Positions 3,631 through 19,951 of a stretch of DNA of 32,047 bases are shown piece by piece. Each line of letters starts with the position of its first letter. The first letter of the stretch is position 1. Made by a program: the position numbers and the translations under genes. Under the pieces are notes generated by a model, which worked only from the letters and a program-made list of their open reading frames with translations, had not been told where the DNA came from and ran no database searches. Source of the stretch: Nodosilinea foveolarum (GTDB lineage: Bacteria > Cyanobacteriota > Cyanobacteriia > Phormidesmidales > Phormidesmidaceae); assembly GCA_003242035.1 (NCBI GenBank), contig QBMC01000029.1:1-32047 (forward strand), written 5' to 3'.

Positions 3631-4019
3631 TCGTTATTCATCCCAAACATCCTAAACCCATACAAAAGAACAACTCCAGCTTTTTACTCCCAAGCTAACC
3701 AGACGCACCTAAGCCATGACACGCAATTGGCACACTTGGAAACAACGGTTTTACGTCCACAGAGAGATATATTTACTAGTCCAGCCAGCAAAGTGTCCCT
3801 CCCCAAACAACACCTCCTAGTCACAGGCGATACAACTTAAACATGCGGAACGAAGACAACGTTTCTAACCCAAACAACACTTTTCACCGCGCCCTTCTCA
3901 ACCTTGCTTTTTCGAGTGTCGCCTCTAGGAATGCCACTGAAAAACGCACAGGCCACAGAAGGTCCAAATCACTCAACGTTCTACGTTGTTGTTCTCTACA
4001 CCTTTTTGAGGAAAACACC
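3631..4019. other. Gene-poor gap upstream of the first barrel gene
   Basis: These 389 bases have open frames on the plus strand, but none has a credible start, a ribosome site or recognisable composition. The frame entering the barrel gene at 3843 lacks any signal-peptide logic before the Met at 4020. The stretch probably holds the barrel gene promoter and the worn 5' part of the tag remnant. Confidence 0.5.
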
Positions 4020-4502
4020 ATGAAACTCTCTCGTATTTGGGCTACCCTGGGTCTTGCTGCTACTGTTCTTCTGGTAGTTCCCTTCGGTGCACAAGCTCAA
4101 TCCATTCGCACTGCCGAAGCGCCAGACTATAACTACGTCGGCATCGGCGGCGGCGACAACGGCTTCTCGGTCAACGGCAAGTTCTCCATCTCCGACAACC
4201 TCTCCATCCGCCCCGAAGTCGCCACCGACTTCAACTTCGACGATAGCGAAGTTGTCTCTTACCTAGTCCCTATCACCTACGACTTCAACACCATTGGGCA
4301 AGGCCGCGCGGCCTTCAACCCCTTCGTGGGTGCGGGTGTCTCTGGCGACATCGGTAACGACAGCAACGTTGACTTCACAGCGGTTGCCGGTACAGACTAC
4401 CGCTTTGCTCGCAACTACGTAGCCAATGGCACTGTTAAGTACTCGCCTTTCGCTGATAGCAACGAAGTTGGCTTCAACCTTGGCGTCGGTTACCTCTTCT
4501 AG
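4020..4502 (+). CDS. Exported barrel-like outer membrane protein, copy 1
   Basis: This 160-residue protein starts at ATG 4020, where a purine-rich GAGGAAA precedes it and a typical signal peptide begins (MKLSR, hydrophobic core, AQA-QS cleavage site near residues 25-28). The frame is open further upstream, but that part has no export signal. The mature chain alternates polar and aromatic or hydrophobic residues, is rich in Gly, Asn and Asp, and ends in GVGYLF. A C-terminal Phe is typical of outer-membrane beta-barrels inserted by BamA. Its size suits a small 8-stranded barrel. Function is unknown. A near-duplicate follows 159 bases downstream on the same strand. Confidence 0.85.
   Translation: MKLSRIWATLGLAATVLLVVPFGAQAQSIRTAEAPDYNYVGIGGGDNGFSVNGKFSISDNLSIRPEVATDFNFDDSEVVSYLVPITYDFNTIGQGRAAFNPFVGAGVSGDIGNDSNVDFTAVAGTDYRFARNYVANGTVKYSPFADSNEVGFNLGVGYLF
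4253..4501 (+). repeat. 249-bp exact direct repeat, partner at 4898-5146
   Basis: Bases 4253-4501 and 4898-5146 are identical. Just upstream the copies differ by scattered, mostly silent changes, and the signal peptides differ more. This fits a tandem duplication with later gene conversion over the 3' half of the gene. Confidence 0.9.
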
Positions 4503-4661: not shown

Positions 4662-5147
4662 ATGAAATTCTCTCGTATCTCTGTTGCACTTTCTCTAGCC
4701 GCTGCTGCTCTGTTTGCAGTTCCCTTCGGTGCTCAAGCTCAAACCATCCGACCTACTGTCGAAACTTCTAACTACAACTACGTTGGTATTGGCGGCGGCG
4801 ACAACGGCTTCTCGGTCAACGGTAAGTTATCCATCTCCGATAACCTCTCCATCCGCCCCGAAGTCGCCACCGACTTCAACTTCGATGATAGCGAAGATGT
4901 CTCTTACCTAGTCCCTATCACCTACGACTTCAACACCATTGGGCAAGGCCGCGCGGCCTTCAACCCCTTCGTGGGTGCGGGTGTCTCTGGCGACATCGGT
5001 AACGACAGCAACGTTGACTTCACAGCGGTTGCCGGTACAGACTACCGCTTTGCTCGCAACTACGTAGCCAATGGCACTGTTAAGTACTCGCCTTTCGCTG
5101 ATAGCAACGAAGTTGGCTTCAACCTTGGCGTCGGTTACCTCTTCTAA
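4662..5147 (+). CDS. Exported barrel-like outer membrane protein, copy 2
   Basis: This 161-residue protein has its own signal peptide (MKFSR, alanine-rich core, AQA cleavage site near residue 25) and its own AAGGA ribosome site about 8 bases before the ATG. From about residue 47 it is almost the same as copy 1, and the last 83 residues are identical. The first 20 or so mature residues differ. It ends with the same GVGYLF outer-membrane-type C-terminus. The different leaders and upstream DNA suggest the two genes may be expressed differently while giving nearly the same barrel. A strong hairpin follows at 5165-5194. Confidence 0.87.
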   Translation: MKFSRISVALSLAAAALFAVPFGAQAQTIRPTVETSNYNYVGIGGGDNGFSVNGKLSISDNLSIRPEVATDFNFDDSEDVSYLVPITYDFNTIGQGRAAFNPFVGAGVSGDIGNDSNVDFTAVAGTDYRFARNYVANGTVKYSPFADSNEVGFNLGVGYLF

Positions 5148-15954: not shown

Positions 15955-17205
15955 ATGTTTTGGAAGAGAGTGTTTTGGGAGGCAAAACATACTGCAATGG
16001 AAAAGTACGCTGTCGTCAAGGAAAAACTGAAGAAGCTGAGCGCTGAGCAGACGAGAGGCGATCGCTACGACCCCTTTTTACCGGCTCAAAAAGAGGCTAA
16101 GAACGCCTGTAGCAAACAGCCCCACAATAGATCGGCTCAGGAAAGTACTGTTCACAACAAGGGTGCTCAGGATAGGGCCTTGCAGACTAACGAACCACTC
16201 GCTTTTAAGGTCGAGCCAGCTCACCACTACTCTTCTCAAGCGGCGACTTTTTCGGTTGCTAGGGCCATTGGGACGCTTCAGCATCGGTCGTACCAGGCAG
16301 GAGAAATTTCCGAGGGGTTTGATGAGGTCCTGCACGACCGGCCTTTTGTCACAGAGCTGGCCGCTTACGAAGATGACTTAGTGACTCAGGAAATTCACCG
16401 GCTAGAAATGCGAGCTGTGGACATCAACCATCGTTCGCAGCAGCAGGCCGAGGACATTTTGGGTTTAAAAAAAGCGGCTCAACGGGCGGCGATCGCCCTC
16501 ACGCGTCAAGGCATTCACGACCACCCCCAGCTAGACATCATCAACCGTTTCTTTGATCGCTATGCCGTTTCTCATGTGCCGATGATCAAAAGGGACGACT
16601 GCGGCTACTTTACGTTAGGCGACTACAGCATTAACCTACGGCGCGCTGAAGAAGAAGCCATTGAGAATGCCGCCGTGCTGCGAGGCGATCGCTATCAGGA
16701 GGCGCTACCTGCGGTCATTCCCTTTTCTCAACCCATCGATGGCAAAACAACGCTCAAACAGCACACCCAACCAACCGGCGGTGGGCCTCGCACTCGACGG
16801 CGAAAAGAGAGCGATCGCCTGACCCGATTACAAGATCAGATGAACCATGCCATCAGCGGACTTAGCACACTTTGGAAAGCTAGCCTGCGCTCAATGCCAG
16901 CTAACGCATCGAGAAAACCGATCTCGGAGGGAGTGACCGCAGAGCAGTATATAGAAAAGAGCCGTGAGTTCTCCTTGGCAGACGGTGCGATTTGGTTTAG
17001 CGCAGCGGCGATTGTGGCTCGATTAGTCCTCAATACCCTCGTCTCTGTTCTGCCTATTTTCCAGCCAATCCTCTGGCTAGCACCGCTGGGTCTCTTTTGC
17101 TATGCCATCTACCTGTTGTTTGTTGTCAAGTCTTCCAACAGCACCTTAATGTATCGCTTAGTGCTAGTCGCGCTAGGTTTGTTCTTGAGCGGTTCTCTTT
17201 CATGA
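15955..17205 (+). CDS. Unknown membrane protein, first gene of the coupled cluster
   Basis: I do not recognise this 416-residue protein. Residues 1 to about 340 are hydrophilic, with an Ala/Gln-rich N-terminal stretch, a helical acidic region (EDDLVTQEIHRLEMR, QQQAEDILGLKKAAQRAA), and a compact segment around HVPMIKRDDCGYFTLGDYSI. A basic linker (GGGPRTRRRKESDRL) follows. Residues from about 345 to the end hold three hydrophobic spans. It is thus probably anchored in the inner membrane by its C-terminus, with a large domain on one side. The start is uncertain: ATG 15955 has no clear ribosome site, while ATG 15997 has GGGAGG at long spacing. Its TGA overlaps the next ATG (ATGA), indicating translational coupling. 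Confidence 0.72.
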   Translation: MFWKRVFWEAKHTAMEKYAVVKEKLKKLSAEQTRGDRYDPFLPAQKEAKNACSKQPHNRSAQESTVHNKGAQDRALQTNEPLAFKVEPAHHYSSQAATFSVARAIGTLQHRSYQAGEISEGFDEVLHDRPFVTELAAYEDDLVTQEIHRLEMRAVDINHRSQQQAEDILGLKKAAQRAAIALTRQGIHDHPQLDIINRFFDRYAVSHVPMIKRDDCGYFTLGDYSINLRRAEEEAIENAAVLRGDRYQEALPAVIPFSQPIDGKTTLKQHTQPTGGGPRTRRRKESDRLTRLQDQMNHAISGLSTLWKASLRSMPANASRKPISEGVTAEQYIEKSREFSLADGAIWFSAAAIVARLVLNTLVSVLPIFQPILWLAPLGLFCYAIYLLFVVKSSNSTLMYRLVLVALGLFLSGSLS

Positions 17206-17630
17206 CACCCACAACTCCTCGAATCCAAAACATCAAGCCCCTGATCGCCTTTGGGCTAGTGGTATCGCTGGTTGGCCTAATGCTCGGCCCGCACCGAGTT
17301 GAAGCATTCATTAGCAACTCTTTTGCTTTTTCCAGCGTGGATAGAAACAAGGCAGTTCAGCCTCTTCGTGAGAGCTGCGAAACAGATGTTGTTGAAACTG
17401 CAAAGCTTTCGAGAGAACAACTTTTAGCCATACTGTCGGTGCCCGAAAGAGACAGTAAGAATCGCATCCGTGAAATTGTTCAAGCACCGTATTGTCAGTT
17501 CGCTCCTATCAACGTTCGAGCCGGTGTGGAAGCTCAAGGAGAAGCCTATCCGCTTGCCTTTGACCCTGACGTTGCCCTAGTAATCTTGTACGAAAATGAT
17601 GAGTATGCTGGATATCGTTTTAAGTACTAG
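17202..17630 (+). CDS. Unknown exported protein of the coupled cluster
   Basis: This 142-residue protein starts at the ATG inside the ATGA that ends the previous gene; the longer frame from 17097 is only open sequence. The N-terminus (PRIQNIKPLIAFGLVVSLVGLML) is a signal peptide or membrane anchor. The rest is a small soluble domain with two Cys that could form a disulfide (SCETD and APYCQF) and the segments SREQLLAILSVPERDSK, IREIVQ and YPLAFDP...VILYENDEYAGYRF. I know of no function. The pattern seems familiar from other cyanobacterial hypothetical proteins, which suggests a conserved family, but I could not check. The last 35 bases overlap the next gene. Confidence 0.75.
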   Translation: MTPTTPRIQNIKPLIAFGLVVSLVGLMLGPHRVEAFISNSFAFSSVDRNKAVQPLRESCETDVVETAKLSREQLLAILSVPERDSKNRIREIVQAPYCQFAPINVRAGVEAQGEAYPLAFDPDVALVILYENDEYAGYRFKY

Positions 17631-18129
17631 GGCGATCGCAACTCGGCTTTGCTGGGGTGAGCGATCGCTTAGTTTTTGGCAACGGCTGGTTTTAGGGATG
17701 GGGGCGATCGCGCTAGGCAATACGTTGAGTAGCTGCGTCGGCCATTCGGCCCCTCAGCCCAGATCCATCACGCTAAAGCAGCAGTGGGAAATCAACCCAG
17801 GAGACGACATATCTGGCAGTTTGGTGTCGGGCAGTTTAGGAGATATTTCTCTGGTGCTTAAAAAAGGCGTGCGGGTAAAAGCGCCTTTTGACGGACAGAT
17901 GGAACCGAGTGAGCTAGCAGGTTGCGACTTCTACTCTACCCCCGAGATTCCGGCCTACTTATTTCGGCTATGTGGTCTTAGCCAAACTTCTCATGGGGAG
18001 GTGAAAGCAGGTCAGACGCTAGGAAAAGCAAGCTACATCAGCTTTGCCACGCTGCGCAAACAGCCCGACGGCACCTGGATTATGGTCGAACCGGCTAGAG
18101 GCGTCTTAGAAAAAGTGATTCAAAAATGA
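17596..18129 (+). CDS. Putative lipoprotein with degenerate M23/lipoyl-like domain
   Basis: This protein of up to 177 residues has an N-terminal basic stretch, a hydrophobic segment (LVLGMGAIALGNT) and a lipobox LSSC, so the mature protein should be lipid-anchored at that Cys. The mature part has small beta-strand units (VRVKAPFDGQME, GEVKAGQTLGKASY, WIMVEPARGVLEK) like the beta-sandwich of lipoyl domains and M23 peptidases, but I see none of the M23 zinc ligands (HxxxD, HxH). It may be a catalytically dead peptidoglycan-binding or assembly protein. Starts at 17596, 17599 or 17605 all overlap the upstream gene. The TGA overlaps the next ATG by four bases, again indicating coupled translation. 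Confidence 0.72.
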   Translation: MMSMLDIVLSTRAIATRLCWGERSLSFWQRLVLGMGAIALGNTLSSCVGHSAPQPRSITLKQQWEINPGDDISGSLVSGSLGDISLVLKKGVRVKAPFDGQMEPSELAGCDFYSTPEIPAYLFRLCGLSQTSHGEVKAGQTLGKASYISFATLRKQPDGTWIMVEPARGVLEKVIQK

Positions 18130-19439
18130 TGAGATCGCGCCTATCTGCCCCGCTCAAATTTTGTCTACTGATCTTCCCTCTCCTGGGCGCACTGCTAGGA
18201 GCCGCATCGGTTAGCGCAGAAGACAAGCTGTCGGTTACCTTCGAGCTGCCGCCCGCCCCGGTAGCCCCAGAATCTCTTGTCCGCTATCAGGAAAGCCTGC
18301 CGCCGATAACGCCCTCAGAGTTAGCGGCTCCTGAGACAGTCATCAGCACGGGAGACATGGCTTTGCGATTTGCGCCAGACGACGTTGCCATGCCCATAGC
18401 GAGTAGCCAACCCCAGGGCGAGCAAGTCGGCCCTATCGCTGAGGCATTTGCGATTGACCATGCAGCGGAAGATTTGCGATCAGCAGTTCCCGAGCTAGAG
18501 AATTGGATTTACGACGGGGGATCTGACTCTTTGGTCGCCCGTACGGTAGGCAGTGCGGAAGGCACAAGACAATCGGATGGCCGAAAGACAACGGCCTACT
18601 ATGGCCACACCGATCCGGGCAACGGCGTATGGAACCTGGGAACGTTCTCCTATCAACACGAGGCAGTTTCTCCAGAAGATGCGGATCAGAAGCAGCTAAG
18701 ACGGCTACAGCATCAGGAACGGCAGCTAGAAGAAAAAGCGGCGCAGTGGAAGGTGCCAATGTCGATGGCGGTGCGGCTCAATGGTTTAGATTTGGCAAAC
18801 CAGGCACCGCTGGCGGCGCTGGATAAAGGCGGCTATATAGAACGGTTGGCAGAAGCTTACAAACAAGGCAAGTCGGGAGAAGAGGCGATCGCCTGGGCAA
18901 GAACTCAGGCGTACTTCGATCCAGACAAACAAAATTGGGACGCACCCGGACTCGGCAATAACCCACATAGTATTCAGCGCGATCAGGAACGCCGTATGGC
19001 CGCCATTGACCAAGCGCTTCGAGCCTATAAAGACGAGAACGGAGGGCGAATCCAATTTCCTCAGGAGGTCAGTATTGTCGGCGATCGCCCGACAACAGCG
19101 AGTCCTTTATGGGATCAATCTGAGCCTATAGCTATCGTAGACTTTTCGCTTACGCCCGTCTCGGGTTCTGAGCAAGTGGGTTCTGAGCAGGCGATCGCGC
19201 CCAGCTCGCCGACGCCAGCAACCGATTTCTTAGAAGCACACGCACTAGAAGCCACCGCCTCGGCCAACGACGCCATAGAACCCAACGACAGTCTGATATT
19301 TGAAGGCGACCAAACCGAAGCAGCCACTTCGACTGAGATAGCAAATGACCCCAAAGTCTCAACGGAGGAAGAAAAACCCAAAAACGCTCAGAAAAAAGCA
19401 TTCATCCGCGCAGAAAATTCTATCGTCCGGCCAAAATAG
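18126..19439 (+). CDS. Exported protein with weak lysozyme-like signature
   Basis: This 437-residue protein starts in an ATGA overlap and has a clean signal peptide (hydrophobic LLIFPLLGALLGAA, cleavage near VSAED). A linker rich in Pro, Ala and Glu leads to a folded domain at about residues 120-310. It contains GSAEGTRQSDGRKTTAYYGH, which loosely recalls the EG...D.G..T.GYGH signature of phage-type lysozymes, although the Glu-Asp-Thr spacing is shorter. A helical region (EDADQKQLRRLQHQERQLEE) and the segments NGLDLANQAPLAAL and WDAPGLGN follow. The last 110 or so residues are acidic and disordered. I infer a periplasmic cell-wall-related role, possibly peptidoglycan cleavage, but the catalytic claim is weak. 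It is the last gene of the cluster. Confidence 0.72.
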   Translation: MMRSRLSAPLKFCLLIFPLLGALLGAASVSAEDKLSVTFELPPAPVAPESLVRYQESLPPITPSELAAPETVISTGDMALRFAPDDVAMPIASSQPQGEQVGPIAEAFAIDHAAEDLRSAVPELENWIYDGGSDSLVARTVGSAEGTRQSDGRKTTAYYGHTDPGNGVWNLGTFSYQHEAVSPEDADQKQLRRLQHQERQLEEKAAQWKVPMSMAVRLNGLDLANQAPLAALDKGGYIERLAEAYKQGKSGEEAIAWARTQAYFDPDKQNWDAPGLGNNPHSIQRDQERRMAAIDQALRAYKDENGGRIQFPQEVSIVGDRPTTASPLWDQSEPIAIVDFSLTPVSGSEQVGSEQAIAPSSPTPATDFLEAHALEATASANDAIEPNDSLIFEGDQTEAATSTEIANDPKVSTEEEKPKNAQKKAFIRAENSIVRPK

Positions 19440-19504: not shown

Positions 19505-19951
19505 GTGTCTCACGCTATGCAAACATCACCTGATATTTTTGCACCCATTGAATCTTTAGAAGATGCGATTGAGCGGTGTCAGGCTCTGGGTATGCGGTTG
19601 AGTCGTCAGCGACGATACATTCTAGAGCTGCTGTGGCAGGTTCAAGAACATCTATCAGCAAGAGACATCTACGACCGGCTAAACCGGTTGGGCCGAGAGA
19701 TTGGCCATACGTCTGTATATCAGAATTTAGAGGCCCTCTCCGACCAAGGCATCATCGAATGCGTCCAGCGTTCTGATGGTCGGCTGTACGGACACATCAG
19801 TTCTTCGCACAGCCACATCAACTGCACCGATACCAACCAGATTATCGACATCAAAATTGATTTACCGGCTGAGCTAATCGCAAAGGTGGAAGCCGAAACA
19901 GGCGTTAAGATCTCAGACTACAGAGTCGATTTCTTTGGCACAAAAGGCTAA
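19505..19951 (+). CDS. Fur/PerR-family transcriptional regulator
   Basis: This 148-residue protein has a winged-helix N-terminal domain (GMRLSRQRRYILELL, LSARDIYDRL, GHTSVYQNLEALSDQGII) with the Fur-type recognition helix. The C-terminal dimer domain keeps the metal ligands of HSHINC. It lacks the CxxC pairs that hold structural zinc in most Fur proteins, since TDTN stands where the first would be. The sequence most resembles the cyanobacterial FurC/PerR branch, which senses peroxide, though I cannot exclude another Fur subtype. The start is GTG 19505 or ATG 19517. It begins 66 bases after the unknown cluster and may be read from the same transcript or its own promoter. Confidence 0.88.
   Translation: MSHAMQTSPDIFAPIESLEDAIERCQALGMRLSRQRRYILELLWQVQEHLSARDIYDRLNRLGREIGHTSVYQNLEALSDQGIIECVQRSDGRLYGHISSSHSHINCTDTNQIIDIKIDLPAELIAKVEAETGVKISDYRVDFFGTKG

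Follow-up and report, generated by a model that had tools for sequence, protein, structure and literature searches.

Four-gene module and its conservation

The window analysed here is a 32,047-nucleotide stretch of the Nodosilinea foveolarum genome (assembly GCA_003242035.1, contig QBMC01000029.1, positions 1–32,047 of the forward strand). Four overlapping genes in this window, named g1 to g4, form a real, unnamed module whose arrangement is far beyond chance, and this conserved module very probably acts on peptidoglycan. The best reading, to which we assign a probability of about 0.5, is a module for controlled peptidoglycan cleavage in which g3, together with g2 and g1, would recruit and activate g4.

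The genes g1 (15955–17205, 416 aa), g2 (17202–17630, 142 aa), g3 (17596–18129, 177 aa) and g4 (18126–19439, 437 aa) are open reading frames (ORFs) of the plus strand. The stop of g1 and the start of g2 overlap by 4 bases in an ATGA (17202–17205), g2 and g3 overlap by 35 bases (17596–17630), and g3 and g4 again share a 4-base ATGA (18126–18129). An earlier note, made from the letters of this DNA, had described these overlaps and had read the four unrecognised products as a C-terminally anchored membrane protein, a small exported protein, a ligand-free M23-like lipoprotein and an exported lysozyme-like protein. The coordinates and overlaps were as claimed, and each of the four descriptions agrees with the results given below. 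Single-sequence searches of g1–g4 against Pfam, NCBIfam and PHROGs gave no convincing match for any of them, and none matched the known defence profiles of PADLOC at E values up to 0.1. Promoter and terminator scans gave nothing above shuffled controls.

Eighty named loci were collected with a profile of g3, and iterated profiles were then used for g1, g2 and g4. Almost all of the loci carried the names of Leptolyngbya-like or other filamentous cyanobacteria that form no heterocysts, and the nearest named loci mark the window's organism as Phormidesmis/Leptolyngbya-like. The genes g1-g2-g3-g4 stood in one order and on one strand at 36 of the 80 loci, and g2-g3-g4 without g1, also on one strand, at 16. 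Eight loci, some of them at contig ends, had g1-g2-g3. Homologues of g1 lay upstream of g2 at 44/80 loci. The ORF overlap of g2 and g3 was present in 47 of 67 homologous loci (exactly 35 bases in five), and g3 and g4 likewise shared a 4-base ATGA in 8 of 51. A single-sequence search had suggested that g1 was unique to the window; this was overturned by the family profile, which found homologues. The arrangement cannot be put down to chance, for the tested genomes that keep this order belong to many genera and several families.

In a single-sequence search of 117 cyanobacterial genomes, g2 and g3 matched the same five, where they were adjacent and usually accompanied by g4. Profile co-occurrence was counted in 362 cyanobacterial genomes sampled across the phylum. 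The genes g2 and g3 were found in exactly the same 10 genomes, g1 (profile A8) in seven, all among these 10, and g4 in 23, including all 10. Where the g3 locus had no g4, a g4 gene was located elsewhere in 27 of 28 genomes; among genomes without g3, g4 was present in 13 of 352. Module DNA was matched in all seven genomes (7/7) of the window's genus. One genome had, at each of two loci, a fusion of g2 with g3 into a single ORF of 284–285 codons. The gene order, which the earlier note had named as a check of its idea, is kept across cyanobacterial genomes, with identical distributions of g2 and g3, and the genes are not separate in most genomes.

The pairwise protein distances of g1–g4 correlated in a mirror-tree analysis (r = 0.62–0.74), a value that shared species history alone could give; such correlations are expected from joint inheritance of the four proteins and suggest nothing further. 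The median identity of the cores was 61% for g4, 54% for g3 and 49% for g2, and this high conservation suits a housekeeping role. A plasmid origin of the module was not supported, since g3 had no match on plasmids.

A lysozyme-superfamily protein encoded by g4

The product of g4 has a signal-like hydrophobic stretch at residues 12–30 (hydropathy), a lysozyme-like core at residues about 123–305 (18492–19040, the match of profile A4 in its own genome) and a low-complexity C-terminal tail. The AlphaFold2 (AF2) model of the core had a predicted local distance difference test score (pLDDT) of 95 and a predicted template modelling score of 0.91, and its predicted fold is that of the lysozyme superfamily. 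In the VIA re-alignment, enzymes of this superfamily occupied the top 18 rows with Z scores of 8.3–7.3 over about 128–159 residues, including P22 lysozyme (8.3), MltF (8.2), MltE (7.9) and a chitosanase of glycoside hydrolase family 46 (GH46; 7.5). Receptor structures further down the list are probably T4-lysozyme fusions. Against the viral models of BFVD, a phage homologue ranked first (E = 5e-8), followed mostly by phage lysozymes.

The motif of the window protein is AEGTR..DG..T..YYGHTDPGN. Glu145 of the AEG motif (codon 18558–18560) is the candidate catalytic acid, and Asp163 of the HxDPG motif (codon 18612–18614), 18 residues later, is the candidate second catalytic residue. Neither varied among 35 homologues from the module or among 14 diverse relatives, some of them from phages, and this conservation marks the two as the candidate catalytic pair. 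The residues invariant in the 14 diverse relatives were A-E-G, H-x-D-P-G, N, G, S, D, D, Q, A-R and D-Q-x-x-R. None of the 35 members matched the Pfam glycosidase families, GH23, GH24 and GH46 included, at E values up to 1, and g4 therefore apparently belongs to an unnamed family.

The g4-type domain in phages, plasmids and other loci

In phages, peptidoglycan hydrolases are found in lysis clusters and as parts of tape-measure proteins. One Microcoleus phage encodes a g4 relative of 195 aa, whose gene has an Amidase_2 gene on one side and M23 genes on the other. A scan with profile A4 found g4 relatives on 30 IMG/VR contigs, as stand-alone proteins of about 190–260 aa, as proteins of about 1000 aa resembling internal virion proteins, for which no family match was found, and in two tape-measure proteins. 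The latter (L169 and L187, 2100–2550 aa) combine g4-type and M23 domains. Four of the six examined viral hosts of the g4-type domain, tape-measure and other phage proteins, contain an M23 domain. A plasmid protein of Leptolyngbya BL0902 likewise has both domains, and one chromosomal g4 is also fused to an M23 domain. In the window's own genome, a second g4-type domain is fused to a weak M23-like match (G000:C19:6589-7671, L045), and its product is possibly a plasmid-borne wall hydrolase. From these cases in phages, on a plasmid, on contig C19 and in a chromosomal g4, it follows that M23 and g4-type domains have been paired repeatedly, independently of the operon.

Contig C19 is 14.6 kb long and also carries one ORF that we take to be ParM-like and another with weak matches to AAA ATPase profiles. 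In another genome (G091:C3), two near-copies of a cluster of unknown proteins (L048 and L049), each with a g4-type domain protein, lie about 490 kb apart. This cluster may be a mobile element.

The phage and plasmid contexts of the domain speak strongly for an action on peptidoglycan. Given its predicted fold and its relatives in phage lysis clusters and, fused to M23, in tape-measure proteins, g4 is very probably a peptidoglycan glycosidase.

A predicted degenerate M23 lipoprotein encoded by g3

The product of g3 is a predicted lipoprotein with the lipobox LSS|C47 (Cys47 codon at 17734–17736). A lipobox was found by a strict pattern in 60 of 80 g3 homologues, and by eye in most of the others too. 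The region from the lipid-bearing cysteine onward (17734–18126) resembles the M23 domain: in hhalign, the g3 profile A5 aligned with 13 M23 domains at a probability of 95.9 and P = 5.4e-9 over 91 columns, against P values of 0.06 or more for column-shuffled, reversed and unrelated control profiles. The first zinc motif, H(x)nD, is missing, with no histidine of the motif in the alignment. The HxH motif is reduced: only 18 of 47 sequences have a histidine at one of its positions, and the window protein has a serine. By these profile and motif comparisons, g3 appears to be a lipoprotein with an M23 (LytM) domain that lacks the catalytic ligands. Against Pfam, g3 had no match at E values up to 5, hence no LysM domain was found. 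Searches of the module proteins against PDB sequence profiles gave nothing real; a match of g3 to designed 'Cake' repeat proteins was rejected as the sum of many sub-threshold repeats.

Predicted membrane-attached partners encoded by g2 and g1

The product of g2 is a membrane-anchored or exported protein with one N-terminal hydrophobic stretch at residues 8–26 (hydropathy). Its conserved domain lies at about 17379–17627, and the AF2 model has pLDDT values mostly above 90 from model residue 31. The top 16 Foldseek hits were all beta-lactamase inhibitor proteins (BLIPs) or their relatives. In VIA, rows 1–41 were nearly all BLIP, BamE and OsmE (Z 6.7–4.2), the top rows also holding an immunity protein of the type VI secretion system (T6SS) and one further envelope protein, and the next rows had a Z of 3.6. 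The model thus predicts a BLIP/BamE-like helix-helix-beta-sheet fold for g2; with Z below 8, this is a fold-level resemblance without sequence membership. No Pfam family matched g2, and for BamE (PF04355) the score of one fused homologue, 13.9 bits, lay below the cut-off of 23.2.

The N-terminal region of g1 is poorly conserved. Its C-terminus (residues 339–416, 16969–17202) is conserved and membrane-embedded, with hydropathy marking residues about 341–415 as hydrophobic; the rest of the protein is variable.

Genomic surroundings of the module

The genes that flank the module in the window are of ordinary kinds. Upstream lie an MlaE permease gene and that of an ABC exporter (Pfam). Downstream of g4 is a gene of a Fur-family regulator (19505–19951, Pfam), the position of which is kept in about 14 close relatives, and the genes beyond it are, as we take them from their translations, dnaN and dnaA. 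Beyond the four genes, no neighbour was conserved outside close relatives. The Fur-family, dnaN-like and dnaA-like neighbours were rejected as functional partners because only close relatives share them. In Anabaena, FurC/PerR has been reported as a regulator of cell-wall amidases (PMC10936207).

At the loci where g3 stands by itself (L089, L090, L093, L094, L096, L097, L099, L101, L108, L111, L113, L118 and L126), g3 of Nodosilinea-like genomes is mostly flanked by a glycosyltransferase-like gene and by a gene for a large membrane protein on the opposite strand, and g4 lies elsewhere in these genomes. At 3843–4502 and 4662–5147, the window also contains two near-identical genes in tandem; the sequences of their small, exported products suggest outer-membrane beta-barrels.

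Proposed mechanism and alternative explanations

In controlled peptidoglycan cleavage by this module, exported g4 would cut periplasmic glycan strands through its lysozyme-superfamily domain, using Glu145 and Asp163. The vacant groove of g3, from which the zinc ligands appear to have been lost, may be the docking site that localises and activates g4. The product of g2 would be an adaptor whose membrane-anchored BLIP/BamE-like domain binds protein and is sometimes one protein with g3, and g1 would attach these proteins to the inner membrane. The simplest reading is an M23–lysozyme pair that has been split and is regulated: g4 would have kept the candidate active site, and its M23 partner would have become a lipid-anchored non-enzyme. 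The activation of g4 by g3 is proposed on the model of the DipM-type degenerate LytM activators. SdpA, a lytic transglycosylase, is stimulated by DipM through its LytM domain, and binding requires the degenerate groove (PMC10336132). Degenerate M23 folds serve as interaction hubs (PMC9662197), and the Anabaena LytM factor Alr3353 has been reported to bind AmiC1 and to affect septal nanopores (PMC6463045). We infer the glycosidase activity of g4, its binding and activation by g3, what g2 and g1 do and which cellular process the module serves; activation of g4 by g3 cannot be told from inhibition by sequence alone.

Several results weigh against this mechanism. The fold match of g4 is remote: the best Foldseek hit in the PDB, a phage endolysin, had an E value of 0.17, and none was below 0.001. 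A Z score near 8 is modest alone for a helical protein, and it is still informative because one superfamily fills the top rows. The parts are also not obligate neighbours, as g2-g3 occurred without an adjacent g4 at seven of the 80 loci and g3 without g2 or g4 as neighbours at 13. The earlier note had proposed one envelope complex of all four products acting on peptidoglycan. An action on peptidoglycan is very probable, given the phage and plasmid contexts of g4; an obligate four-part complex is too strong a claim because g1 and g4 are missing beside g2-g3 in some loci, and the 'one complex' reading is only partly supported.

The BLIP-like fold predicted for g2 could equally mean inhibition, and for this reason we also considered, as an unlikely explanation, that g4 is dangerous to its own cell or exported against neighbours, with g2 and g3 binding and blocking it in the periplasm. 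The closest folds to g2 include BLIPs and the T6SS immunity protein, and the occurrence of g2-g3 or g3 without adjacent g4 is what would be expected of orphan immunity genes. Lipoprotein and periplasmic lysozyme inhibitors exist. A family of lysozyme inhibitors has been reported (PMC2267010). However, among the four proteins g4 shows the highest conservation (median 61%) and lacks the variability of toxin/immunity pairs, and the unlinked g3 genes are not orphans because 27 of the 28 genomes concerned keep g4. There was also no match in PADLOC and none of g3 on plasmids, and the chromosomal position beside the Fur-family and dnaN-like genes is kept in close relatives. The strong conservation of g4 and its persistence with unlinked g3 thus argue against a toxin–immunity pair.

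The remaining explanations concern what the module is for and whether g4 is an enzyme at all. It is doubtful, rather more so than an inhibitor role, that the openings made by the module in peptidoglycan serve an energised trans-envelope machine (ExbB/ExbD/TonB-like, a pilus or a junction pore) and not growth or division. ExbB and ExbD genes lie directly downstream of g4 on the same strand, with a convergent TonB-like gene, at six loci without detected g1 (L109, L119, L123, L125, L127 and L132), and the MlaE and ABC exporter genes upstream of the window module would also fit; but the ExbB/ExbD link is restricted to this one locus group and absent elsewhere, and no other neighbour is conserved. 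A trans-envelope wall-perforation system of filamentous, mostly non-heterocystous cyanobacteria, drilling septal nanopores, junction pores or secretion pores, is quite improbable. In such a system, the glycan-cutting g4 would make defined openings while a catalytically dead LytM lipoprotein and membrane partners hold it in place, and the system would be, if true, a glycosidase-based counterpart of AmiC/Alr3353 in Anabaena. We regard it as very improbable that g4 derives from a phage or plasmid hydrolase and, now inactive, serves another purpose in a structural module that binds peptidoglycan. The g4 domain does occur in phages and plasmids, and g3 shows that hydrolase folds in the module can lose catalysis; yet Glu145, Asp163 and their surroundings are invariant in module copies and phage relatives, unlike the eroded ligands of g3.

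The four families of the conserved module are covered by neither Pfam nor NCBIfam models, and one of them is apparently a new lysozyme-superfamily hydrolase that cyanophages share. A regulator and its enzyme are apparently encoded side by side and co-occur across genomes, so the principle could be tested with two small proteins. It also offers an entry point into wall remodelling of filamentous cyanobacteria outside the heterocyst-forming models.

Comparison with known systems

The core fold predicted for g4 and its presumed glycan substrate are shared with the lysozyme superfamily (GH24 phage lysozymes, GH23 MltE and MltF, and GH46), as is the glutamate with which the first core helix ends. 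The spacing of 18 residues between Glu and Asp resembles that of the GH46 chitosanases. Unlike these enzymes, g4 has its own conserved motifs YYGHxDPGN, FSYQ, DLANQ and DQxRR. The predicted fold of g2 is shared with BamE/OsmE and BLIP (VIA Z up to 6.7 over about 80 residues), whereas g2 has no lipobox and no significant sequence match to them, and it travels with g3.

Like the degenerate LytM factors DipM, NlpD, EnvC and the cyanobacterial Alr3353, g3 would face the periplasm, has an M23/LytM-like domain without ligands and is linked to a hydrolase. It differs from NlpD and DipM in having no LysM domain by Pfam and only about 130 residues after the lipid-bearing cysteine. In contrast to the degenerate LytM factors in general, g3 shares its operon with the enzyme on which it presumably acts, which would be one of the lysozyme fold rather than an amidase, and a BLIP/BamE-like domain is encoded next to g3 or fused with it. 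The bifunctional M23–lysozyme proteins of phages and plasmids pair the same g4 domain with M23. There the two are one polypeptide, whereas the module splits the pair over two genes, its M23 half is a ligand-poor lipoprotein, and g1 and g2 are added.

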